Assembly: GCA_029975555.1 (NCBI GenBank)
Contig: JARKOY010000175.1
Coordinates: 1 to 64,000 of the forward strand
Length of the DNA: 64,000 nucleotides
Origin: Spirochaetia bacterium
GTDB lineage: Bacteria > Spirochaetota > Spirochaetia > Treponematales > Rectinemataceae
Direction of reading: 5' to 3'
The notes under the pieces were generated by a model. The model saw nothing but the letters and a program-made list of their open reading frames with translations. It had not been told where the DNA came from and did not search any database. The translations under genes and the position numbers were made by a program. Numbering within the stretch: the first letter of the stretch is position 1; every line of letters begins with the position of its first letter. Positions 10,064 to 22,425 of this stretch are shown here, in pieces.

Positions 10064-10193
10064 GGCTGCGCCGCGGGGCTATTCCGTCGTCTCCGTTTGG
10101 ATTTCTAGGTTCTGTATACTTTCTCACGCGTAGCTTTGGGATAAAGTTCATACAAAAATGGATTCATGGCATTTATTTTTGAAATAATTTTTT

Positions 10194-10909
10194 AGGGGCT
10201 GTAGTAGATAAGGAACCATGATATATTATTTTTGTGAATATAACTCATTGCAAGCTAAGTAAAAATATGCAATATCGCTTGCTCGAGCTTTTTGTGCTAG
10301 AAGTAACCGCTCGTTCCGCGGCAAACATTCTTGGTATTCAACCTAATACCGCAGCTCTTTTCTACAGAAAAATACGTCAAGGTATCGCCTTTCGTCTTGC
10401 CAAAGAAGCTCATGCAATATTCCAAGGGGACATTGAAATCGATGAAAGTTACTTCGGCGGTGTTCGTAAAGGCATGCGAGGTCGTGGCGCAGCTGGAAAG
10501 GTGGTTGTCTTTGGTATGCTAAAGCGCCAAGGTAAGGTGTATACCGTGGTAGTAGAGAATACCAAGACAAAGACGCTCATGAACGAAATAGCCCTTAACA
10601 TCAAGCCAGATAGCGTCGTTTATACAGACGCCTATCATAGTTACGATGCATGAGATGTAAGTGAATTTCATCATCATCGAATCAATCATTCAGAGGAATT
10701 TGCTGATGAGAAGCGTCCTATCAACGGCATAGAAAACTTCTTGAATCAAGCCAAACGAGTCTTAAGAACGTACAATGGAATTGATAAGAAATACTTTCCC
10801 TTGTTTCTTAAAGAATGTGAGTTCCGTTTCAACTATGGAACACCCAAAAATCACCTCAAGGTCCTAAGGAAATGCTGTTCGGTTTAAAGCCTTATCTACT
10901 ACAGCCCCT
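10194..10909 (+). mobile_element. IS1595-family insertion sequence (broken transposase)
   Basis: A 716-bp element with 20-bp perfect terminal inverted repeats: AGGGGCTGTAGTAGATAAGG at 10194-10213 and its complement at 10890-10909. It carries one transposase frame on the plus strand. IS1595-type elements normally duplicate 8 bp of target. The flanks (AATTTTTT left, CTAAGTAT right) do not match, so the duplication has decayed or the right flank is rearranged. The right side has two more related ends. The element sits between carB and an integron-cassette island and is AT-richer than carB. Confidence 0.85.
10234..10887 (+). pseudogene. IS1595-family (ISXO2-like) transposase with internal stop
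   Basis: The frame encodes 217 codons interrupted by TGA at 10651-10653. The first part contains the DDE-type catalytic block DIEIDESYFGG and the second-strand motif VVYTDAYHSYDA. After the stop the same frame continues with DVSEFHHHRINHSEEFADEK and INGIENFLNQAKR, the normal C-terminal portion. Relatives as I recall them read DALDVSEF here, so one T-to-G change (TTA to TGA) explains the stop. A usually conserved Trp is also Leu in ENFLNQ. The product is probably inactive unless UGA is read through. Confidence 0.85.
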
Positions 10910-10977
10910 CTAAGTATATCATCACACTTTATCTAGTACAGCCCTAAGAATTTCAAAAGCTTATTCGCGACAGCTCT
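10890..10977. repeat. Three stacked IS-end-like repeats
   Basis: Besides the true right end of the insertion sequence (10890-10909), two diverged copies follow: CTTTATCTAGTACAGCCCT at 10927-10945 and GCTTATTCGCGACAGCTCT at 10959-10977. All three share TTAT-N5-ACAGC, with start-to-start distances of 37 and 32 bp. They look like ends of earlier related insertions at nearly the same place. Convincing left-hand partners for copies two and three were not found in the stretch after carB. Confidence 0.55.
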
Positions 10978-11025
10978 CTACCTTATCATTTTTCTCTTTC
11001 CTTGAGGGGTGTTGTGAAGTAGAAT

Positions 11026-12441
11026 ATGTTAGACGATGGATTTCAGCGCCACAATCTTAAGGATGGCCGGGCCATGCTGATAGTTGAACACAGAGCGTTT
11101 CATCTTTATCGTGAGGACGCATATCGGGAGTACTGTTGGAGCGTTGACGCCTACGGGGCCTATCAACCAGCATCCTTCATCTACCTATGCTTTGAAGCCT
11201 TCAGGGATGCGTGTACTGAGTATGGTCTTCAACTTGTGTATCGTTCGGCTGACACAATGCAACAACACTTCCCCTGGAGGTGTGAGCGAGATTCAGTGTC
11301 GGAGAAGGCGCCACATCGGGGTCTCATTCTGCGGATAGAAGGCGATGAAGACGTCGCCGCGGCCACAGAAGCACTCCATGAAGGCCGCAACGTCATCGCT
11401 CTTATTCCGAGTGAGCTTCTTGGCCTCTTCTACCCCAAAGATGATGCACGGATGGAAAGAGCCAAAGCAAACATCGCGAAGATCGGCGCAAATCCAAGAG
11501 ACTGGGAATTCCGATCACTAGCGAATGCCTGGATACCAGTGCGCTGGGTTGAAATCGAAACCGACATGCCGGGTCGCTTGTTTGTAACGCGTGATGCCTT
11601 CCTCAGCGACGGCTATTTCATGAAGGGTTACGGATATTCTGACGATAACCTTGCACAGATCAAAGCCTTGATACAAGCCTTTGCTTGTTTCAAGTCCAAT
11701 CTCCTCCGCATGTCGTACCGCAACACAGTCAATAGCTGGCCGACGGGAGAGCCTCTGACGGTCCTTGTTGATGTCTGGAATCACGGCCCCGACCTTACCC
11801 AGGCGCTGATAACCCTGAATATCGGCCGCGAATTCGAGCCATTAAGTCCACTGGACCGGAAGATCCCTCCACTGCGGAGTCTGGAGCGCGCAAGCTTTGC
11901 CCTCCAAGTAGTTCCACGGGTTGACGGAGATATGTCGCTTATGATTGGTGCAACGGCCTCACTCCCCGAAGGGCGTAGCTGTCAGGTCGTTTTTGCTCCG
12001 CTGAGGCTTAGCATTGTTCCTGCCGTCGGTTCGTCTCAGCGATCATCTGCACCTGAGGATGATCCAACACTCAAGCGGCTTGTCGCCGTGTTCCGCGATG
12101 CCCAAATGCTATCGGAGGTTGAATCACTTCCCGAACTTGTCCGGGTTGACACCCGGGCATGCCTGAATCGAATACGCGTCCTTACGGAAAGGATTGTCCT
12201 TCAGGTTCTAGATAAGTGCAGCATCACTTGCCGGGATAAAAACCTGGCGGCAGGAATAGCAACACTGAGAGACGAACACGTGGTCTCTGCTCGAGCAGTA
12301 AGCTATCTACATACTATCAGAGTGATTGGGAATATTGCGTCACACGCGGCGTCTGAACCCCTCAGTGAGGCAGACGTGCGAATAGTCTCGTACGCTCTTG
12401 CGTGCGTAGTTGAGGAGTTTATGGACCGAAGACTGTTATGA
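11026..12441 (+). CDS. Cassette-encoded protein with DUF4145-like C-terminus, unknown function
   Basis: A 471-residue cytoplasmic protein without signal peptide or membrane segments. Residues about 250-340 look like a beta-sandwich. The last about 100 residues, with ACLNRIRVLTERIVLQVLDK and LHTIRVIGNIASHAA, fit the helical DUF4145 fold that is common near restriction and defence genes. The function is not known. The ORF can start at 11026, overlapping the cassette junction GTTAGAC. The ATG at 11074 may be the real start: it lies wholly inside the cassette and follows AAGGATGG at good spacing. An attC site follows 18 bp after the stop, marking this as an integron gene cassette. Confidence 0.7.
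   Translation: MLDDGFQRHNLKDGRAMLIVEHRAFHLYREDAYREYCWSVDAYGAYQPASFIYLCFEAFRDACTEYGLQLVYRSADTMQQHFPWRCERDSVSEKAPHRGLILRIEGDEDVAAATEALHEGRNVIALIPSELLGLFYPKDDARMERAKANIAKIGANPRDWEFRSLANAWIPVRWVEIETDMPGRLFVTRDAFLSDGYFMKGYGYSDDNLAQIKALIQAFACFKSNLLRMSYRNTVNSWPTGEPLTVLVDVWNHGPDLTQALITLNIGREFEPLSPLDRKIPPLRSLERASFALQVVPRVDGDMSLMIGATASLPEGRSCQVVFAPLRLSIVPAVGSSQRSSAPEDDPTLKRLVAVFRDAQMLSEVESLPELVRVDTRACLNRIRVLTERIVLQVLDKCSITCRDKNLAAGIATLRDEHVVSARAVSYLHTIRVIGNIASHAASEPLSEADVRIVSYALACVVEEFMDRRLL
11028..11034 (+). other. Integron recombination core site (left cassette boundary)
   Basis: GTTAGAC fits the GTTRRRY core at which integron integrases join cassettes (cut after the first G). It lies at the 5' edge of the first cassette gene. 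The sequence to its left does not fold into an attC arm pair, so it may be an attI-like or truncated site. Alone the heptamer is weak. It gains weight from the two attC sites downstream. Confidence 0.5.
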
Positions 12442-12459
12442 TGAGTTTGGCCATACCCC

Positions 12460-12511
12460 GTCTAACAACCGGTTGCAGAGGACGGCCCGCCGCTGAACCG
12501 GGCCGTTAGGC
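12460..12511 (+). other. attC recombination site 1
   Basis: A 52-bp site bounded by GTCTAAC (RYYYAAC, 12460-12466) and GTTAGGC (GTTRRRY, 12505-12511). Inside, CCGGTTGCAG pairs with CTGAACCGG except for one unpaired G. That is the extrahelical base characteristic of single-stranded attC folding. It lies immediately after the first cassette gene in the normal orientation. Confidence 0.85.
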
Positions 12512-12549
12512 ACATACTGTGCTTATTGCAATTATGGAGGAAAAAACCA

Positions 12550-13122
12550 ATGGACCAAAACGAGGTCGCAATTGCTTTTGACATGGTTCTTGAAGAAATA
12601 GAGAACGCTATTGCGGCGCTGAATCGAGAAGGAGGTCAAGCCTTCCAAGTGGGCAAATATGATGTGGCAAAGGAGTTGATGGAAAAAGGCTCGCAGATGA
12701 CTGCATTTCGCACAAAGGTTGTTGATCTTCAAAGGGAATGGCTTAACATTTTTGCGATTGTTGTGCCTCCAAGGGGTCGGAAGCAAAGTAAAAAGGTGGC
12801 CGAAAGATTAAAGCGTGGTCTTAGAACACCAGAAGACGAATTTCGCATACCTATACTACAAAGTCTGGTAGATTTGGGTGGTTCTGCTCCTATGACCGAA
12901 GTCCTTGATAGACTGGAAAGGACGATGAAGGATCGGCTAAACGCTTATGACCGCTTGCCTTTGCCCTCAGACCCTACCCAGGTCCGTTGGCGCAATACCG
13001 CTCAGTGGTCTCGAAACGCAATGGTAAAAGAGGGTTTGCTTGCCTCAGATTCCCCACGTGGAGTGTGGGAGATAACTTCGGCGGGTAGAAGATGGCTTGC
13101 CGCTGCTATCGAACAGAAATAA
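12550..13122 (+). CDS. Mrr N-terminal-like winged-helix protein (cassette-encoded)
   Basis: A 190-residue soluble protein. Residues 1-70 are helical. The C-terminal half begins near DEFRIPILQSLVDLGGSA and ends with RGVWEITSAGRRWLAAA. That pattern matches the Mrr_N winged-helix domain, which usually guides Mrr-type restriction endonucleases to DNA. No nuclease domain is present, so this is a stand-alone DNA-binding-type module. ATG 12550 is chosen over an upstream TTG because GGAGG lies 9 nt before it. The gene is framed by attC sites on both sides and is therefore the second cassette. Role unknown. A regulatory or defence accessory role is inferred. Confidence 0.7.
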   Translation: MDQNEVAIAFDMVLEEIENAIAALNREGGQAFQVGKYDVAKELMEKGSQMTAFRTKVVDLQREWLNIFAIVVPPRGRKQSKKVAERLKRGLRTPEDEFRIPILQSLVDLGGSAPMTEVLDRLERTMKDRLNAYDRLPLPSDPTQVRWRNTAQWSRNAMVKEGLLASDSPRGVWEITSAGRRWLAAAIEQK

Positions 13123-13130
13123 TACAGTGC

Positions 13131-13214
13131 GCCTAACAACTCGCTGCAGCCGACTGTTCTCTCGGCTCGCTTCGCTCGCCTCGGTCGCAGCGGCTGAGCT
13201 CGGTGCCGTTCTAC
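13131..13214 (+). other. attC recombination site 2
   Basis: Begins with GCCTAAC (13131-13137). GCTGCAGCCG (13143-13152) pairs with CGGCTGAGC (13191-13199) leaving one extrahelical G, exactly as in attC 1. The loop between them contains a CG-rich palindrome. The right core reads GTTCTAC (13208-13214), which departs from GTTRRRY after GTT. Those bases belong to the sequence following the last cassette, so this probably marks the right end of the array. Confidence 0.72.
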
Positions 13215-13247
13215 GGACGCGCTTTAAAAATGAGGTAAGATGTTTAC

Positions 13248-15032
13248 ATGCGGAAGAGCAAGAGCCTTAGATCCGAACTTCTGATAAATTTCATTGTCGT
13301 GGAGTTGATATCTCTTCTATTGGTAGACAGTATCTCCTATTTGTGGATAGAAGACCTTCTGAATCGCAGGATCAGCGAATCGACGGTGGAGACGCTCAAG
13401 CAGATCGATAGAAATATTTCTGCGCTTTTTGGCGATCTCGATGATATTTCCCTTTACACAATTTCAAACCGATATGTAAGAGTTTTTCTGAAATTGGACA
13501 AGCGTGAAGAGAAAAAAATTGCGCAAACGCTGATCAATATTAATGAAGAATACGCCAACCTTATGAACTCCAAAAGCTATGTCTCTTCGATCAATATAAT
13601 CGGCGACAATGGATTGACCTACGAGACCGCAGTGCCCAAATACAGCTCGCCCAACGAAGATATAATTAAATACACCAGCCATCTTCCCATGGATGGAAGC
13701 TTTATAATCACGCCAACTTACATTAAGTATTATCAGAATCTAGGACTTCAATACATTATTTCTTTCTGTCGCCAGATAAACGACATGAACAACCTCAATA
13801 AAAGGCTCGGTACGCTGAGCATCGATATCAGCGAGAAAAAGCTCAGCGAAATATATAGCGATGTGCAATTGGGTAGCTCTGGTTTTATATTTATCGTGAA
13901 CCGGGAAGGGACAATCGTATCGCATCCCAGGAAAGAGGAATTATGTAAATATGTGGGCAACCAGCCCTACTTTGGGGAGATTTTCAGAAAAGGTGAAGGT
14001 TTTAGCCGGCTCAAAATCGAGGGGAAAGATACGCTGGTCACTTATTATTGTTCCCCTCGATACAATCTTGCTTTTATCGGCATGGTACCCTTCGCCGAAC
14101 TGATGCGTGAGACGATTTCCATACGCAACGTGCTCTCGCTCGTGGCGCTCGCGGTTTCCATCTTTGCTGTTTTTATCTTTTTCAGAATCGCTGAAGGCAT
14201 CACCAATCCCATCAACTTGATAATCGAGCGCATGAAAAAAGTCGAGAACGGCGACATGAATGTCGTCGTGGATATCCAGAGAAATGACGAAATAGGCTTG
14301 CTTGGGAAAAACTTCAACAACATGATAAAGCGGATCAAATATCTGATCGAAGAAGTATACAAGGCGCAGATCAAAAACAAGGAAGCGGAGCTCAGGGCGC
14401 TGCAAGCCCAAATAAATCCTCATTTCCTTTATAATACGCTCGATGTCATCTACTGGACTTCCCGCATTGAGAAAGCCGAAAAAACAGGTTCGCTCGTAAC
14501 GGCACTCGCCAAGCTCTTCCGATTGGGGCTCAACAACGGCAACGAGATAACGACAATCGCGAAGGAAGTTGAATATCTGAATTACTATCTTGCCATTCAG
14601 AAGGTCAGGTATGAAAAGGAGCCAAATATAATCATTAACGTTGATCCTTCTATATTTAAATATAAAACAATAAAACTGATCCTCCAGCCTATCGTGGAAA
14701 ATGCCTTGATCCACGGAATCGCCGACCTCGGTGAAGATGGCGCCATCGAAGTCACAGGACGAGAACTAGATAGTGATATTGTCTTTACTATCTGCGACAA
14801 TGGCACGGGTATGAGCGATGCAAAAATAGCCTCTATATTCCTCAATGATACGGACACAGAAAAAGGTTATGGTATCAAAAACGTGCATGAAAGGATTAAG
14901 CTTTTTTTCGGCGAGAAATATGGGTTATCAATTACGAGCCAAGAAGGCAGCGGCACCAAAGTTGAGATACGAATACCGAAGATAATCAATTTCAACGGTG
15001 GGAATATCGATGATAAAGATTTTGGTCGTTGA
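13248..15032 (+). CDS. YesM-type sensor histidine kinase
   Basis: A 594-residue membrane sensor with a first transmembrane helix (about 10-33), a large extracytoplasmic dCache-like domain (about 35-285), a second helix (about 293-315), HAMP (about 318-370), and a LytS/YesM-type kinase core. The phosphoacceptor His392 lies in QINPHFLYNTLD. The ATP-binding part shows PIVENALIHGI and the CDNGTGM G1 box. It is followed by its response regulator with a 23-bp overlap. It presumably senses an oligosaccharide or the loaded binding protein and controls the convergent GH1/GH130/transporter genes. Directly upstream is the last attC site. Confidence 0.93.
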   Translation: MRKSKSLRSELLINFIVVELISLLLVDSISYLWIEDLLNRRISESTVETLKQIDRNISALFGDLDDISLYTISNRYVRVFLKLDKREEKKIAQTLININEEYANLMNSKSYVSSINIIGDNGLTYETAVPKYSSPNEDIIKYTSHLPMDGSFIITPTYIKYYQNLGLQYIISFCRQINDMNNLNKRLGTLSIDISEKKLSEIYSDVQLGSSGFIFIVNREGTIVSHPRKEELCKYVGNQPYFGEIFRKGEGFSRLKIEGKDTLVTYYCSPRYNLAFIGMVPFAELMRETISIRNVLSLVALAVSIFAVFIFFRIAEGITNPINLIIERMKKVENGDMNVVVDIQRNDEIGLLGKNFNNMIKRIKYLIEEVYKAQIKNKEAELRALQAQINPHFLYNTLDVIYWTSRIEKAEKTGSLVTALAKLFRLGLNNGNEITTIAKEVEYLNYYLAIQKVRYEKEPNIIINVDPSIFKYKTIKLILQPIVENALIHGIADLGEDGAIEVTGRELDSDIVFTICDNGTGMSDAKIASIFLNDTDTEKGYGIKNVHERIKLFFGEKYGLSITSQEGSGTKVEIRIPKIINFNGGNIDDKDFGR

Positions 15033-16074
15033 TGATGAAAAGATGATCCGAGATGGTATCGTGATGACGATGCCATGGAACGAGATCGGTATGGAGGTCG
15101 TCGGTTCGGCGAGCGATGGCCTTAAGGCCCTTGAGATGATTCAGAAATTCAAGCCGCACATCGTCCTCACCGATATCCGTATGCCCAAGTTGGACGGCAT
15201 TGAACTGCTCAAAGCCAGCAAAGCGTTGATACCTTCGACGGTGTTTGTGATGTTGAGCGGATATGACGATTTTGTTTACGCTCAGCAGGCGATAAAATAT
15301 GGAGCCGTCGATTATCTCCTGAAACCCTTATCGGAGGACGAGCTGAAAAAAATCCTCATGAAGCTCAAAAAAGAGCTCGAAAACGAGATAAGCGGTTATT
15401 GCCAGCACCTCGCGATAAAAAAACTCATCAACAAAGAACTGGAGCTGTTTTACCTAGCGGTTAAAAACGGCGACAAGCATAACGCTCTGCTCCGTCTTGG
15501 CGATATTGTGGATAATTCGGCACTGAAGGAGTTGCAACTCGATCAGTACAGGAGAATTATCATCGAGATAATGTATTCATTGCTCGACATCTCCAACAAA
15601 GCACCTTTCAATCTGAGCGAGAGGGCGCTCCTGGACGGCTTTGCGCTGGAAGAAGTGCTAATTGGATATACAGACCTCGCGGAGATCAAGGATTGGCTGT
15701 ATCGCTTCACCGAAAATATGATGGATAGACTCCATGAATATACCGAAGGCAATTACCAGTTCATGCTCAAGAAGGCGATCGAGTTTGTGGAAGCCCACTT
15801 TGATGAGGACATCTCCGTCAAAGACGTGGCTACTTCCCTTTTCCTGAGCCCCAATTACTTCAGCCATATTTTCAAGAAAGCCAAAGGAGAATGCTTTACG
15901 GATTATCTCAACCGGGTAAGAATAGAGGAGGCAAAAAAGATCCTTTCACAGAGAACCAATAAAGTTTACGAAGTCGCGGAAATGGTGGGGTATCACGACT
16001 ACAAATATTTTTCGAGCGTCTTCAAGAAATATGTCGGAGTGTCCCCGACTCGATTCAAGGGTGATTCCGACTAG
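15010..16074 (+). CDS. YesN-type response regulator with AraC DNA-binding domain
   Basis: A 354-residue regulator: receiver domain (1-120) with acidic pocket VVDDE and phosphoacceptor Asp55 in LTDIRMPKLDG, a linker of about 130 residues, and two AraC helix-turn-helix motifs at the C-terminus (SVKDVATSLFLSPNYFSHIF and VYEVAEMVGYHDYKYFSSVF). The start at ATG 15010 gives the canonical MIKILVVDDE opening; a GTG 12 bp upstream is possible. It overlaps the kinase gene and forms a two-component pair. Its 3' end overlaps the convergent GH1 gene by 20 bp. Confidence 0.94.
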   Translation: MIKILVVDDEKMIRDGIVMTMPWNEIGMEVVGSASDGLKALEMIQKFKPHIVLTDIRMPKLDGIELLKASKALIPSTVFVMLSGYDDFVYAQQAIKYGAVDYLLKPLSEDELKKILMKLKKELENEISGYCQHLAIKKLINKELELFYLAVKNGDKHNALLRLGDIVDNSALKELQLDQYRRIIIEIMYSLLDISNKAPFNLSERALLDGFALEEVLIGYTDLAEIKDWLYRFTENMMDRLHEYTEGNYQFMLKKAIEFVEAHFDEDISVKDVATSLFLSPNYFSHIFKKAKGECFTDYLNRVRIEEAKKILSQRTNKVYEVAEMVGYHDYKYFSSVFKKYVGVSPTRFKGDSD

Positions 16075-17428
16075 CAATAGCACAGCCGTTGTTCTTTATG
16101 AGATCCCGATACCACCAGGCGCTCGATTTCATTTTCCGTTCCAACGTTCCGTAATCGATATAGACGATGCCGAATCGCTTGCTGAAGCCAAAAGCCCACT
16201 CGAAGTTATCCATCAATGACCATATATAATAGCCATCAAGATTCACGCCCTCTTGGATGCATTTGGCCAGCTGTTCCACATGTTTTGCAAGATAGTCTAT
16301 ACGGTCGTGATCATGTATAGAACCGTCGGCTTGAGGTACGTCATCGAAAGCTGCCCCATTTTCGGTAATATAGATATGCGGATTGTCATAGCGCTCTTTG
16401 ATATCCATCAACATGCGATGGAGTCCCTCGGGGAATATCTCCCAGTCCATGCTAGTATACTTCGAGCCGGATGGTTTGACTTCCTTGTAGCATAGGATGT
16501 CATGATTGTCCGTCGCCGCGATCACTTTTCTGAAATAGAAATTCACGCCTAGGAAGTTGCTTCGGTTAGCGGCGATGGTTTCCATATCTCCATCGTTGAT
16601 TTCAGGAACACCCAGTTTTTCCTTAAAAATACCGAATAGCTTTTCAGGGTATTTCCCAGCAAGGATGGGATCCAGGAACCACCGATTGTGGAATTCATCC
16701 GCCAATTCCGCAGCTTTTTTGTCTTCCCAGGATTCGGTGGCAGGATACATAGGATATAGATTCAGTGCTGGGCCGATTTTGCCAGCTTGGCTGGTTGGCC
16801 AGATTTCCCTATAGCGCTCCACGGCCTTCGCATGAGAAAGAATGAGATGATGGGAAACCTGAACAGCCTTCGAAAGATTAGTCATGCCAGGAGCGTGTCT
16901 TCCGATATAGTGCCCGGCATAGGCGACCACCCAGGGTTCGTTGTGGGTTATCCACAGTTTAACTCTGTCACCGAAAGCCCTAAAGACATAATCCGCATAG
17001 TCCACAAAGCGGCTTATCGTATCTCGGTTCGTCCAGCCGCCAAGATCCTGAAGGGCTTGGGGGAGATCCCAGTGATACAACGTCGCCATCGGTGCGATAT
17101 CGTACTCAAGGAGCTTGTCTATAAGCCTGTTGTAGAAATCGACGCCTTTCCAATTGATCGTGTTTTTTCCAGTGGGGAATATCCTCGGCCAGGCAATTGA
17201 AAAGCGATATGATCTGATGCCGATATCGCGCATCAGCCCGACATCTTCCTCATATCGATGATAGTGGTCGGCGGCGATATCGCCATTCTGGCCTGCATAT
17301 ACTTTCCCAGGAATAGCACAGAAAGTATCCCAAATAGAAAGGCCGCGCCCTTCTTCATGAGCCGCGCCTTCGATCTGATACGAGGACGTCGCTGCTCCCC
17401 ATACAAAGTTTTCTGGAAACTCCACCAT
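16055..17428 (-). CDS. GH1 beta-glycosidase (beta-glucosidase/beta-mannosidase type)
   Basis: A 457-residue cytoplasmic (beta/alpha)8 hydrolase that releases monosaccharides from the non-reducing end of imported beta-glycosides. The N-terminal signature FVWGAATSSYQIEGA is present, with acid/base Glu164 in THNEPW and nucleophile Glu356 in ITENGA. WSLMDNFEWAFGFSKRFG completes the sugar-binding site. No signal peptide is seen. Last gene of the leftward operon, 11 bp after GH130. Beside GH130 a beta-mannoside or beta-1,4-linked oligosaccharide substrate is plausible; beta-glucosidase activity is the family default. Confidence 0.95.
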   Translation of the reverse strand: MVEFPENFVWGAATSSYQIEGAAHEEGRGLSIWDTFCAIPGKVYAGQNGDIAADHYHRYEEDVGLMRDIGIRSYRFSIAWPRIFPTGKNTINWKGVDFYNRLIDKLLEYDIAPMATLYHWDLPQALQDLGGWTNRDTISRFVDYADYVFRAFGDRVKLWITHNEPWVVAYAGHYIGRHAPGMTNLSKAVQVSHHLILSHAKAVERYREIWPTSQAGKIGPALNLYPMYPATESWEDKKAAELADEFHNRWFLDPILAGKYPEKLFGIFKEKLGVPEINDGDMETIAANRSNFLGVNFYFRKVIAATDNHDILCYKEVKPSGSKYTSMDWEIFPEGLHRMLMDIKERYDNPHIYITENGAAFDDVPQADGSIHDHDRIDYLAKHVEQLAKCIQEGVNLDGYYIWSLMDNFEWAFGFSKRFGIVYIDYGTLERKMKSSAWWYRDLIKNNGCAIASRNHP

Positions 17429-17439
17429 GTATCTCTCCT

Positions 17440-18480
17440 TCAGGGGGATGTCGCGATTATATGATCCAGCAGCTCATTAAGCGGAACAGTGGCTAGCCCA
17501 ATGGACGTGTCGCAGCAGCCATAGTAAATCCACAGAAGGTCGTTCACTACTACAGCGCCTGTGGGGAATATGACATTAGGAATGAACGCGCCAAATTTTT
17601 CATAGTACGCTTCCGGTTCCATAATAAAATCAGGAGCTCTAGCGATAACTTTTTCTGGCTTTTCAAGATCCAGGATCATCGCGCCCATGCGGTAGATCAC
17701 TCTTCGCGTTGCAGGGTTGGCATTTTCTACACCATGATAAAGCACGAGCCAGCCTAAGTCTGTGCGGATGGGCGGTGCGGCACCACCAATACGATTGTCT
17801 TCCCATGGATATTCCGGCTGAATGACTACCTGCGGTTCGCTCCAATTCTTCAGATCGTCGGAATATGAAATACGAATGGAAGGATGCTCCTCGCTGTGTC
17901 CTGTGGATAGATCGACGTAACCTATGGGCCTTCGCAGCAGAGCGAATTTACCGTTTATCTTTTCGGGGAAAAGAATGACATCTCGATCGTCCAGTTCGGG
18001 GGGGGTTGCCCATCCAAAGAAGTCCCAATGGATCTTATCTTTGGAAATGGCGATGCCGGAACGCGTTTGGTTTTTGTCGGTAGAGGGATCGAAACCTGGA
18101 AAGTCCCCCTGTGAAGCATCAGGAACGCCTAGCCCGGTCGGGTAAATATTCCATGCGAAACGCCTGAAAGCGAAGGTCATATAATAGGTATCGCCGATCT
18201 TAACGACACGGGGGTCCTGGACGCTGCCGTATTTATAGCCGATCATTTCCGGGCTGAGCACGGGCTTGTCCGATAGATGGGTAAAATGCACGCCATCGTC
18301 GCTCTCCAGAAGACCAACATAGCAGTGGTGGGGCCTCATAGAGCCGGCGGCACGCTCGAACAGATAGAATTTTTCATTTTCATATATCACGGCTGGGTTG
18401 TAGGAGTTGCTCATTCTCCAATCCCATTTGCCGGGCCAGATTATAGGATTTTCTGGGCAACGCTTTATATTCAACGCCAC
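17440..18480 (-). CDS. GH130 beta-mannoside phosphorylase
   Basis: A 346-residue five-bladed beta-propeller enzyme of family GH130, which uses phosphate to split beta-mannosidic bonds and saves ATP by making mannose 1-phosphate. The SVQDPRVV segment supplies the expected general acid Asp89, and LYHGVENANP is the conserved phosphate/sugar-site region. Start is GTG, with AAAGGGAGG nine bases upstream. Subfamily (mannosyl-glucose, manno-oligosaccharide or mannosyl-GlcNAc) cannot be fixed by eye. It sits between the transporter permease and GH1 genes. Confidence 0.88.
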   Translation of the reverse strand: MALNIKRCPENPIIWPGKWDWRMSNSYNPAVIYENEKFYLFERAAGSMRPHHCYVGLLESDDGVHFTHLSDKPVLSPEMIGYKYGSVQDPRVVKIGDTYYMTFAFRRFAWNIYPTGLGVPDASQGDFPGFDPSTDKNQTRSGIAISKDKIHWDFFGWATPPELDDRDVILFPEKINGKFALLRRPIGYVDLSTGHSEEHPSIRISYSDDLKNWSEPQVVIQPEYPWEDNRIGGAAPPIRTDLGWLVLYHGVENANPATRRVIYRMGAMILDLEKPEKVIARAPDFIMEPEAYYEKFGAFIPNVIFPTGAVVVNDLLWIYYGCCDTSIGLATVPLNELLDHIIATSP

Positions 18481-18531
18481 AACAAAACCTCCCTTTCTTG
18501 AATATGAATATACGTGAATAATTGGCGGACA

Positions 18532-19404
18532 TCAGCTTTTGACCGCCCCGTCGGTCATACCATTGATTATTTGATCCTGAAGGATCAGGTAGATGATCAT
18601 AAGCGGAAGCGAGGCGATCACCATTGCAGCCATCAACTGGGAATAGTCCGTGCTGTACGCACCAATGAAATTATAGAGGCCCAGCGGAAGGGTCTTTTTG
18701 GAGTCTTTCGAGATAAAGATGAGAGCCAAGGAGAACTCTTTCCAATTGGTGAGGAAATTCAAAATTGAGACAGTGGCGATGGCGGGAGAACTAAGTGGAA
18801 AGACAATCTGGGCGAAAATCCGTTTCATCGAAGCTCCGTCTAGTACTGCTGCCTCGATGATGGAATCAGGCAATGAACGGATAAAACTTTCCAGAATAAA
18901 AATAGACATCGGCAGACAGAAAGCCGTATACGATAGAATCATCGACAAAAGCTTATCCAAAAGACCTAAGATTTTCATTTGCAGAAAGAGCGGTACCAGG
19001 ACCGTCTGCATAGGAATCAACATTCCGACAATAAAAATCGAATAAATGAAGCCGCGCATTCCAAATTTAAACTTGGATAGGATGAAGGCAGCGGGAGCCG
19101 CGACCAACGTGGTGAGAATAACGGCCGCCACCGATACGATGACGCTGTTTAGAAAATAAACATCGATCTTGGCTGTTTTCCATGCCTTGATGTAATTCTC
19201 GAAATGCAACCGGGTAGGCAGGGAAAAAGTATTCATCATGACTTCCTGGTTGCTCTTCAGTGATGTATAGAACATCCAGAAGACAGGAAAGAAGGTAATG
19301 AATCCGAACATTATAAGAAATAGATACTTCACCGGTTTCTTTGCTCTAGTCCCGATCGTAAATGACATAGACCGCAAAAATTCTATATTTGTCTGCTTCT
19401 TCAT
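18532..19404 (-). CDS. Carbohydrate ABC transporter permease, MalG type (CUT1)
   Basis: A 290-residue inner-membrane permease with six helices. The EAA loop (EAAVLDGASMKRIFAQIVFP, about residues 190-209) docks an ATPase. The C-terminal region LILQDQIINGMTDGAVKS is typical of the MalG group. The frame is open much further upstream, but that part overlaps the other permease. ATG 19404 is chosen for AGGG six bases before it, with 19410 as the alternative. No ATPase gene is in the operon, so an MsmK-like shared ATPase elsewhere is expected. Confidence 0.93.
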   Translation of the reverse strand: MKKQTNIEFLRSMSFTIGTRAKKPVKYLFLIMFGFITFFPVFWMFYTSLKSNQEVMMNTFSLPTRLHFENYIKAWKTAKIDVYFLNSVIVSVAAVILTTLVAAPAAFILSKFKFGMRGFIYSIFIVGMLIPMQTVLVPLFLQMKILGLLDKLLSMILSYTAFCLPMSIFILESFIRSLPDSIIEAAVLDGASMKRIFAQIVFPLSSPAIATVSILNFLTNWKEFSLALIFISKDSKKTLPLGLYNFIGAYSTDYSQLMAAMVIASLPLMIIYLILQDQIINGMTDGAVKS

Positions 19405-19412
19405 GCTCATCC

Positions 19413-20294
19413 CTATAGATCGGCCGACTTGCGCGACATGAGAGCTCGACTTCCGATAATTAGCGTGAAGCTGAGCACGAAAATAACAAGGGAAACCGCG
19501 CTTCCATACCCATATTTGTAGGTTTCGAAGGTTTTGTTGTACATATAAATTGCCATGAGATCCGTGGAATGTGCTGGCCCTCCCTGGGTCATTGTGAAGA
19601 CGAGGTCGAAGGTTTTCATCCCTCCGGCAATACAAAGCACTACACTTGCCATGATGCTGCTCCATATCATTGGGAGCGTGATGTGGAACAATTTTGTGAG
19701 GCCGCCGGCTCCATCGAGCTCGGCTGATTCGAATACTTCCTTCGGAATATTCTGCAGGGCTGCCATCAAGATGATCATGTAGAGCCCGAAAAACTGCCAT
19801 ATGATGACGAAACCTACTGAGTAGAGCGCCAGGCCCGACTCGCCGAGCCAATCGTGCGCCAGAGAACCAAGGCCGATATTTTTCAGTAGATTGTTGACAA
19901 TTCCAACCTGCGAATTCAATATGGTCGACCAAAGTAAACCTACTACGACGGTGGAAAGGATCATCGGCATAAAAAATATGAATCTGAAAAATTTCGCCCC
20001 TCTGAACTTGTCATTAAGCAAAACAGCAAGCACAAGCCCGAGCGGAATTTGTCCAAAGACGGAAATCACAACGATGAAAATATTGTTACGAAAAGCATGC
20101 CAAAACACTTTATCGCTCAATACGGCCTTGAAATTTGCCAAGCCAACATAAATAGGCCTGCTTAGGCCATTCCAGTCATAGAAACCGTAAAAAAAGGAGC
20201 GAATTATTGGATATACGACAAAAAAAATAAAAAGCGAGAGCGCAGGGAAAAGTCCAAGGAAAATATACTTTTTATTTTTGAAAATCAAATCCAT
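19413..20294 (-). CDS. Carbohydrate ABC transporter permease, MalF type (CUT1)
   Basis: A 293-residue permease with six predicted helices, opening with FLGLFPALSLFIFFVVYPII and carrying the EAA-type loop ESAELDGAGGLTKLFHITLP near residue 190. It forms the heterodimeric channel with the MalG-type protein encoded 8 bp downstream. The binding-protein gene lies 137 bp upstream across two strong stem-loops. Confidence 0.94.
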   Translation of the reverse strand: MDLIFKNKKYIFLGLFPALSLFIFFVVYPIIRSFFYGFYDWNGLSRPIYVGLANFKAVLSDKVFWHAFRNNIFIVVISVFGQIPLGLVLAVLLNDKFRGAKFFRFIFFMPMILSTVVVGLLWSTILNSQVGIVNNLLKNIGLGSLAHDWLGESGLALYSVGFVIIWQFFGLYMIILMAALQNIPKEVFESAELDGAGGLTKLFHITLPMIWSSIMASVVLCIAGGMKTFDLVFTMTQGGPAHSTDLMAIYMYNKTFETYKYGYGSAVSLVIFVLSFTLIIGSRALMSRKSADL

Positions 20295-20320
20295 ATGAAA
20301 GCCCCTTCATTAATCAAGAA

Positions 20321-20413
20321 GACATTCTAGAAAATTCCAGAATGTCCTCTTGCCCAATTCAATCAGAAATCAGGCCATTGAGCACGATTTAATATTGACA
20401 TCGTGCCCAATGG
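20321..20413 (-). terminator. Two stem-loops between binding-protein and permease genes
   Basis: First hairpin: GACATTCT (20321-20328) pairs with AGAATGTC (20339-20346). Second: CCATTG-A-GCACGAT (20375-20388) pairs with ATCGTGC-C-CAATGG (20400-20413). Both lie just after the binding-protein stop and before the permease start. Neither has a long T-run on the transcribed side, so partial termination or protection of the upstream mRNA end fits best. Confidence 0.6.
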
Positions 20414-20431
20414 TCATCTATACGTCACATC

Positions 20432-21703
20432 TTACTTCAGTGTGGCCTGCATCTGGTTTGCGATGTCGATCGGCTTTGCTTGGCCGATCATAACAGCCTG
20501 AAGGCCATCATTGATAATGGAAGTCAACTCAGAATTGAGCGCAGAATCGTATACAGTGATGAGAGGGTGTTCTTCTATGAGGGTCAGCATCTTAGCATAC
20601 AGCGGGTTAATAGTTTTTCGGTCGATGGGGATACTCTTGAAGGATATGGGGATGTAGTATTTCGGAAACAATCTCTGAGACTCTTCGCCGGAGATGAACA
20701 TAATGAACTTGCCGATCGCTTCTTTCTGTGCAGGGCTGGCTTTGGCATTGATGGCGATACCTGTGCCGGAAACGCCGCTCATAACTTTGGGATCTCCTTT
20801 CCCGCCGAAATCAGGAAACACTGCAAGCTCAGTGTTGTCCAGTACCGACTGGGGAGCGTTGGCGATCATGTCAGAAAGAGCCCACGAACCGTCGATCATC
20901 ATCGCGGCTTCGCCCTTGTAGTAATAGCGACGCATCTGGACATTGTCGATTGTGTTGTAGTCTTTATTAAAAGCACCGAGATCGTTCAGCTCTTTCATAA
21001 TATTGAGCGCTTGGATAAAAGGCGCATCAGTAAATTTGGCGTTGTTCTTTTTGGCGAGAACATCATTAAGCCATTGGGATCCAGTCATACGATTGGCGAG
21101 GCAGCTAAAAATAGTCGACTGGGCGGGCCAGAGAGGTTTGTTCCCGAACGCTATAGGAATGATACCGTTTTTGTTGAATACTTGGATGGCGTCCTTCAGT
21201 TCAGCATACGTTGTGGGGAATTTCACATTGTATTTCGCGAAAATTGCCTTGTTGTAATAGATCACTGATGTAAGGGAAACGCCCAGGCCAGCGGAGTACG
21301 TTTTCCCTTTAACAGTGAATTCATCGAGCGCTCTAGGGCTGAACGCATTTTTCCATACGGGGTTTTTATCCAACAAATTATTAATATCGGCGAGCAACCC
21401 AGCGTTGGCGAACTCGATGCACATAGCGTTTGGCCAGATGACGAAAGCATCGGGGAGGGAACCTGCAGCGGCCATCGTCTTCAGCTTGGTCTGATACTGA
21501 TCACGGGGAATCTGTTGCTCATCAATTACGATATCGGGGTTCGCTTTGGCAAATGCAGCCAGACGATCAGCCATAAATTCGGCGCGTTGGTCAGCTCCTA
21601 CATAGGAATGCCAGAGTGTGAATTTAACTTTTGAATCCGCGCTAACAGCGGATCCAAAAACTACGGCAAAAAGGCAGAATAACCAGAGAAAACGCTTAAA
21701 CAT
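20432..21703 (-). CDS. Extracellular sugar-binding protein (CUT1)
   Basis: A 423-residue periplasmic receptor of the SBP_bac_1 family. The signal peptide MFKRFLWLFCLFAVVFGSAV ends at SA-DSK and has no lipobox cysteine, suggesting a free periplasmic protein. The mature part starts KVKFTLWHSYVG and shows ADINNLLDKNPVW and EGYG/AAMMIDGSWALSD-type family blocks. TAGGAGGTAAT precedes the ATG. First gene of the leftward operon SBP-MalF-MalG-GH130-GH1, likely controlled by the YesM/YesN pair at the other end. Confidence 0.93.
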   Translation of the reverse strand: MFKRFLWLFCLFAVVFGSAVSADSKVKFTLWHSYVGADQRAEFMADRLAAFAKANPDIVIDEQQIPRDQYQTKLKTMAAAGSLPDAFVIWPNAMCIEFANAGLLADINNLLDKNPVWKNAFSPRALDEFTVKGKTYSAGLGVSLTSVIYYNKAIFAKYNVKFPTTYAELKDAIQVFNKNGIIPIAFGNKPLWPAQSTIFSCLANRMTGSQWLNDVLAKKNNAKFTDAPFIQALNIMKELNDLGAFNKDYNTIDNVQMRRYYYKGEAAMMIDGSWALSDMIANAPQSVLDNTELAVFPDFGGKGDPKVMSGVSGTGIAINAKASPAQKEAIGKFIMFISGEESQRLFPKYYIPISFKSIPIDRKTINPLYAKMLTLIEEHPLITVYDSALNSELTSIINDGLQAVMIGQAKPIDIANQMQATLK

Positions 21704-21856
21704 ATTACCTCCTACTCAATCGTTAAACATCTCTTAACTCAGGACCAAGCCTGAGCTTATGCGCTGTTAATATCTTCTCTGCAACATTTCTTTTCGAATA
21801 TACTTTCTTCTTAAAAGAACTGGTTAAAAGGTTAACATTAGAAAGCAGAGAGCAAA

Positions 21857-21895
21857 ATCTTAAATTCTTAGATTAGTATCTAAAATTCTTAGATT
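21857..21895. promoter_or_regulatory. Paired palindromic operators upstream of mannoside transporter
   Basis: Two near-identical 18-bp sites, ATCTTAAATTCTTAGATT (21857-21874) and ATCTAAAATTCTTAGATT (21878-21895), are 21 bp apart start-to-start, two helical turns. The second contains the perfect inverted repeat ATCTAA-N5-TTAGAT. They lie about 155 bp upstream of the binding-protein gene, a fitting place for activator dimers such as the YesN-type regulator. Factor identity is inferred from context only. Confidence 0.55.
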
Positions 21896-22237
21896 CGCTT
21901 TTGAGGATATTCATGAGGATCAGGAATCAGTTCCCGAATCCCTGAATTTTTCCACGCTCCAGGGTTGTTCATGAGGACGGCGAGCGAGGTACGGTAATCG
22001 CAACTGTCACTCCGCCGTTCCCCGAACACACGGCTATGACGAACAATAAGGCGTTTATGCTCGTCGACTATGTCGATCGAATGCGCACGTATAGCGACAA
22101 GCATTTCTTGGCCTGCATACTCAGGGCTCGTCGAGTAGTAGTGGCGGGAATCGATCCCCGGTCTTCTGAAAGCCATATATCTATGAACGGTTTAAACGAA
22201 TCCAGGACTGTTCCCTGATACTTTGTAGTTGGGGCAT
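21889..22237 (-). pseudogene. Internally deleted IS21-family istA transposase
   Basis: Two pieces of one transposase survive. A start with good RBS (AGAAGGTGATC) at 22237 reads MPQLQSIREQSWIRLNRS and stops at 22181. From 22176 another frame reads the C-terminal part: HYYSTSPEYAGQEMLVAIRA, then VRHSRVFGERRSD, NNPGAWKNSGIREL, ending at 21889. HYYSxPxEYAGQ and PGAWxNSxxRE are typical of IstA C-termini. The central DDE catalytic part and istB are missing, so the element cannot move by itself. Confidence 0.6.
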
Positions 22238-22336
22238 GTTGATCACCTTCTTTGATCCTCCCTTGTCGTTGTTGGTCCTTCGATGAAGGGATTCTGGATT
22301 ACCAGGAGCTACTGTTCAACTGCCCATGGTTTTTCT

Positions 22337-22405
22337 AGGGAATTCCCGGTGATAACACCAGGGAAATCTAGGTGATATTTTCAGGGATTTTTAGTTTATA
22401 ATACA
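22337..22405. repeat. Three 23-bp imperfect tandem repeats
   Basis: Copies begin at 22337, 22360 and 22383, each starting AGGGA: copy 1 AGGGAATTCCCGGTGATAAC, copy 2 AGGGAAATCTAGGTGATATT, copy 3 AGGGATTTTTAGTTTATAAT (first 20 bases given). The period is exactly 23 bp. They lie about 100 bp upstream of the istA start, where IS21-type elements carry multiple terminal repeats, so they are probably the left end of that element. The stretch 22238-22336 between them holds no gene that I can see. Confidence 0.5.
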
Positions 22406-22425
22406 CAGGAAAAACACCCCCTTCC

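Follow-up and report, generated by a model that had tools for sequence, protein, structure and literature searches.

A probable integron remnant with attI, two gene cassettes and no integrase gene in a spirochaete genome

Two gene cassettes and their attC sites

The window analyzed here is a stretch of 64,000 nucleotides (64 kb) at the start of a contig, C43, of a draft spirochaete genome. Between IS1595-family sequences and a histidine-kinase operon, it carries two genes that are each followed by an attC site on the forward strand, as an earlier note on this DNA had proposed from the sequence alone. The features of the locus are the following:

10193-10909, + strand: IS1595-family copy A, with perfect 20-bp terminal repeats (Pfam DDE_Tnp_IS1595, 2.4e-16; NCBIfam IS1595, 6.6e-26)
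10909-about 10945, - strand: terminal piece of IS1595 copy B, whose outer end abuts the attI segment
10943-11030, + strand: left half of the attI region, core GTAGAATATG^TT at 11019-11030 (HMM of six genus attI regions)
11029-12505, + strand: gene cassette 1, 1477 bp, starting with TTAGAC and ending with the G of GTTAGGC in attC1 (complementary boundaries)
11026-12441, + strand: cassette 1 ORF, 471 aa, C-terminal DUF4145
12460-12511, + strand: attC1, R'' GTCTAAC, arms CCGGTTGCAG and CTGAACCGG, one extrahelical base, R' GTTAGGC (covariance model, strict scan)
12506-13208, + strand: gene cassette 2, 703 bp, starting with TTAGGC (complementary boundaries)
12550-13122, + strand: cassette 2 ORF, 190 aa, Mrr_N winged helix after a helical N-terminus (Pfam PF14338, 7e-17; model pLDDT 81)
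13131-13214, + strand: attC2, R'' GCCTAAC, arms GCTGCAGCCG and CGGCTGAGC, one extrahelical base, R' GTTCTAC (covariance model, relaxed scan)
13209-13247, + strand: probable head of a third, truncated cassette

The unpaired base is a G on the left arm of both sites (CCGGTT-G-CAG with CTGAACCGG in attC1, GCT-G-CAGCCG with CGGCTGAGC in attC2), in line with the inner arms that had been described as pairing apart from one extra G. The boxes RYYYAAC and GTTRRRY, attributed to both sites in the same description, delimit attC1 but fail at the R' box of attC2. To score the sites, we scanned both strands of the 64 kb with a rule (RYYYAAC, arms with one bulge, GTTRRRY) and derived its chance rate from Markov sequences with the dinucleotides of the window. 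The only strict match was 12460-12511 (0.007 expected); when the last box was loosened to GTT, attC1 and attC2 alone matched (0.18 expected). We also trained a covariance model on 13 attC sites, all taken from other genomes and none from the window; run with filters off, it ranked the same two sites first (12460-12511, 29.1 bits, E 5.8e-5) and second (13131-13207, 15.7 bits, E 0.16) in the window. The covariance matches that the earlier note had called for were thus obtained at both sites, with a model of our own. In the whole source genome attC1 alone passes E 1, and relatives have up to 39 matches with this model. Taken alone, attC2 is weak because its right box is GTTCTAC and not GTTRRRY. 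A Rfam scan returned nothing at gathering thresholds. In a plain DNA fold of the attC bottom strands, the minimum corresponded to folds other than the attC fold, which we weighed neither for nor against the sites.

When a cassette is circular, its R'' has to pair with its own first bases. GTTAGAC at 11028 is the exact complement of GTCTAAC at 12460 for cassette 1, and GTTAGGC at 12505 is the exact complement of GCCTAAC at 13131 for cassette 2. Both cassettes therefore have a 5' end complementary to their own R'' and close exactly, although their boundary sequences differ from each other. The sites lie 18 bp (attC1) and 8 bp (attC2) downstream of the stop codon of the respective ORF, and the last six bases of the attC1 R' box are part of cassette 2. 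Position and circular closure make attC2 credible.

The cassette 2 protein is composed of a long helical N-terminal half and a C-terminal Mrr_N winged-helix domain, the former seen in the predicted structure and the latter assigned by Pfam. By scanning about 85,000 species genomes, we found five relatives of its gene: two in Chloroflexota and one in a Deltaproteobacterium with 68-70% identity, and one each in a Thermodesulfobacteriales and a Pirellulales genome with about 50% identity. All three closer relatives (L057, L058 and L059) adjoin cassette boundaries. At L057 these are exact, with GTTGGGC 47 bp before the start and GCCCAAC just past the stop, followed by an attC that the covariance model matches, although this attC is itself part of the training set. 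Because its relatives adjoin cassette boundaries, the cassette 2 gene is a mobile cassette in other phyla, and it is the only one of the two genes found as a cassette in other arrays.

No relative of the cassette 1 protein was found among 393 genomes of the phylum, in plasmids or in viral contigs. Nothing related to the cassette 2 protein was found in plasmids or viral contigs either, and solved structures gave no useful match for the cassette proteins. DUF4145 occurs beside restriction and candidate defence proteins; a defence or regulatory role of the cassette proteins would be a guess. The ATG of the cassette 1 gene (11026-11028) is composed of two attI bases and the junction G, with the next in-frame ATG at 11074, and cassette insertion may have supplied the start codon of this gene.

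The borders of the array

The sequence GTTAGAC, taken in the earlier note as a left boundary, is indeed present at 11028. Judged by its sequence context, it is more than a boundary, as it forms the right end of an attI of the genus type. An integron integrase above the TIGR02249 cut-off is encoded in 6 out of 10 genomes of the genus. In all six, GTAGAATATG^TT occurs 609-741 bp upstream of intI on the opposite strand, the same distance being found for GTAGAATATGTT. Wherever the contig continues, the core is followed by cassette starts. Window positions 10943-11030 match the profile of the six genus attI regions with an E of 8.5e-8, which is inflated because the core was searched for from the window's own motif. 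In the corrected test, a profile without the 12-bp core, the best match in the 64 kb is still 10943-11017 (E 0.04; next 8.1). The 36 bases before the core share 20-22 positions with each of the six genus attI, compared to 8.8 at random, and the window attI falls within the spread of the genus sequences. Of the components of a complete integron, attI is therefore present. Its retention suggests the stump of an integron of the resident type rather than cassettes dropped at an arbitrary site.

All six genus attI, as well as a second site in genome G397, end with TTTTCT-N17-TAGAAT. The window attI ends with TTTCCT-N17-TAGAAT, which looks like an outward cassette promoter; a plain consensus promoter scan called none. 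Two copies of a CTTAT-TCGC-like element are found roughly 50-110 bases before the attI core (L164, L165, L168, L169), of which the window retains one (AAGCTTATTCGCG); these copies are possibly integrase binding repeats. The second attI-like site of G397 (C69:36655, L188, reverse strand) carries GTAGAATATG^TTAACG and lies away from intI, with a transposase gene immediately in front of it and a small aspartic-protease-like gene behind it. The covariance model detected no significant attC match there.

At the right border, the G at 13208 is followed by TTCTACGGACGC (13209-13247), which adjoins the histidine-kinase operon. Cassettes of the genus have similar starts behind the R' box, such as GGACGC, and a cassette of G398 starts with TTCTGC (GTTCTGC; partner R'' GCAGAAC). 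From this likeness, 13209-13247 probably represents the head of a third cassette that was truncated at the start of the histidine-kinase and sugar-uptake operon. Because attI in G398 is followed by TTCTGC, we also considered whether the right-edge TTCTAC might be the original right half of an unoccupied attI. We rejected this possibility, as the first attC of G398 has R'' GCAGAAC and TTCTGC is hence part of the cassette; for this reason the palindrome GTAGAA-TATG-TTCTAC of the joined flanks was taken as a coincidence.

Absence of intI, IS1595 copies and host island

No integrase gene was found in the window, as the earlier note had stated, and the same held when we extended the search to the source genome. 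The best match to TIGR02249 reaches 82 bits against a cut-off of 265, in an assembly with a completeness of 99%. Since matches of this kind also occur in all relatives, they represent other tyrosine recombinases and not intI. The integron lies beside a lipoprotein/MATE gene region in G398 and in the majority of the other relatives that have one. The source genome has this region on contig C50, where the match to G398 extends as far as the intI stop, beyond which the contig continues with other genes. Both loci (C43 and C50) are thus read through without intI, and the covariance model gave no significant attC match at the old locus on C50 or elsewhere on C43.

The side of the window where intI is expected is filled by IS1595 copies, and the attI homology begins where copy B ends. 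The remaining piece of copy B is 92% identical to the end of an IS copy elsewhere in the source genome (G000:C151:113037). Copy A has a single in-frame stop in its transposase gene and is not flanked by a matching target duplication, so we infer its history. The simplest account would be a deletion or relocation driven by IS1595.

The locus itself differs among relatives. In G398, G399 and G393, no more than about a thousand bases separate carB from the counterpart of the gene at window position 22425, and there is no integron at this locus. This spacing indicates that window 10080-22424 is an insertion. It is 12.3 kb long, with a G+C content mostly of 0.40-0.54 compared to 0.61-0.65 outside, and it hosts the IS1595 copies, the integron remnant and the operon of histidine kinase, response regulator, beta-glucosidase and ABC transporter. 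A 79% relative of the operon occurs at a different place in another genus of the family. When we searched for the empty site, the right-flank relative in G410 had the kinase operon beside another gene, with no matching upstream DNA. As the carB locus has no integron in relatives, the remnant may have moved or arrived with this foreign 12.3-kb island; no intermediate was seen.

Taken together, we interpret the locus as an integron remnant composed of attI, two cassettes and the probable head of a third, with loss of intI, and assign this reading a probability of about 0.85. An integron integrase would have inserted the two cassettes in tandem by recombining attI with attC at G^TT; 13209-13247 is probably what remains of a third. 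Relatives have a divergent intI 0.6-0.7 kb to the left; here the gene would have been lost, on the side that now bears two IS1595-family copies. The array would be frozen in the source cell. The promoter-like motif inside attI may still drive expression of its cassettes, which could move if an integrase were supplied from outside, such that mobilization in trans is possible in principle.

It is unlikely that the integron is in fact intact, with intI present in the cell and lost in assembly or placed on another contig. Integron arrays do interrupt assemblies, with attI forming the exact contig end in G399 and G400, and draft genomes are known to overstate CALINs (PMC9024848). However, the window contig runs through the expected place of intI and has IS1595 there, and the usual intI locus on C50 is read through without it in a genome 99% complete. 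The assembly is a draft of 179 contigs with a second carAB copy on C108 (L054, G000:C108:15580-19700), which is 87% identical to that of the window, closer to G398, and ends at the contig end. Either the gene pair was duplicated or the assembly contains a second population. As the assembly may mix two related populations, the absence of intI is less certain.

We consider it improbable that the cassettes were inserted in trans into an attG-like secondary site beside the histidine-kinase operon, with a left border that merely resembles attI. In favour of such an event, integrons of the genus usually lie at another locus, off-target insertion is one of the proposed origins of CALINs (PMC8618304), and CALINs away from intI are common, for example in Xanthomonas (PMC12444791). 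Nevertheless, the host has no integrase, and the likeness to attI spans about 88 bases, far past the core, with the conserved spacing of TTTTCT-N17-TAGAAT, while attG is a chromosomal target without attI homology. Chance inverted repeats behind two ordinary genes, to which the weak score of attC2 alone (E 0.16) might point, can be dismissed, because the window has only two such sites, both just past stops and both closing with the right start bases, and because the cross-phylum cassette relatives of cassette 2 refute this explanation.

Relation to known integrons and significance

CALINs are usually defined by at least two attC sites with no integrase nearby (PMC9024848). The window has two sites that fit the covariance model, the second marginally, and no integrase in the vicinity, in agreement with the earlier description of a CALIN with stranded cassettes. 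As in the CALINs defined by IntegronFinder, there are at least two attC sites, the cassettes hold one gene each and share one orientation, and intI is absent nearby. In contrast to them, the array is flanked by a retained attI on its left and by what is likely a truncated third cassette on its right, and IS1595 ends occupy the position of intI. CALINs have been suggested to arise in three ways, by off-target insertion, by loss of intI or by rearrangement (PMC8618304), and the retained attI favours loss or rearrangement over off-target insertion. The stable two-cassette array of Xanthomonas citri pv. citri also lacks intI, but it belongs to another phylum, and no attI is described in the portion of that report consulted (PMC12444791).

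A further parallel is the remnant of Treponema phagedenis, where attC sites and cassettes remain and intI is lost (PMC3607928). The genome had been suspected to be spirochaete-like, and indeed it belongs to the order of Treponema but to a different family. In contrast to T. phagedenis, attI is recognized in the window and IS copies lie at the break. Wu et al. linked no mobile element with integron loss in Treponema and reported no known mechanism (PMC3607928). Our coordinates reproduce published ones in that genus: the attI box GTTAGGT of G200 at 1344229-1344235 for Treponema brennaborense, and intI of G157 at 716338-717285 for T. succinifaciens (PMC3607928). In Treponema intI reads toward attI (PMC3607928), and this reverse layout has been called typical of spirochaetes (PMC9668308); the genus of the window has the ordinary divergent layout.

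The sedentary chromosomal integrons of the genus (G393, G394, G397, G398, G399 and G400) share their attI type with the window, but they keep intI divergent from the array and lie mostly beside the lipoprotein/MATE region, not beside carB. Matches of the attC model adjoin intI in G393, G394, G397 and G398. Besides the array beside intI on C7, G398 has a second large attC run on a contig without intI (C8:159856-216557, L201). In G367, AGAATATGTTAGGC occurs nine times on one strand over a 160-kb stretch of C3 beside its integron (L066, L143-L153) and looks like a repeated cassette-junction sequence.

The locus is a remnant of a known kind, dissected here in detail, and not a new system. CALINs and spirochaete integron loss (PMC3607928) are already known, as are two-cassette CALINs (PMC12444791). 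The new elements are the attI of a spirochaete, its junction with an IS and a cassette shared across phyla. IS1595 ends lie at the break, where the Treponema work had no mobile element (PMC3607928); an attI family is now available for a spirochaete genus outside the family of Treponema, with the ordinary divergent layout; and one cassette gene is common to three phyla. A more speculative reading, which we regard as doubtful, is that the displaced attI with its outward promoter, severed from intI by IS1595, acts as a landing site served in trans by the integrases of neighbours. If this were true, the second attI-like site of G397, beside a transposase, would make the orphan attI a recurrent form in the genus.
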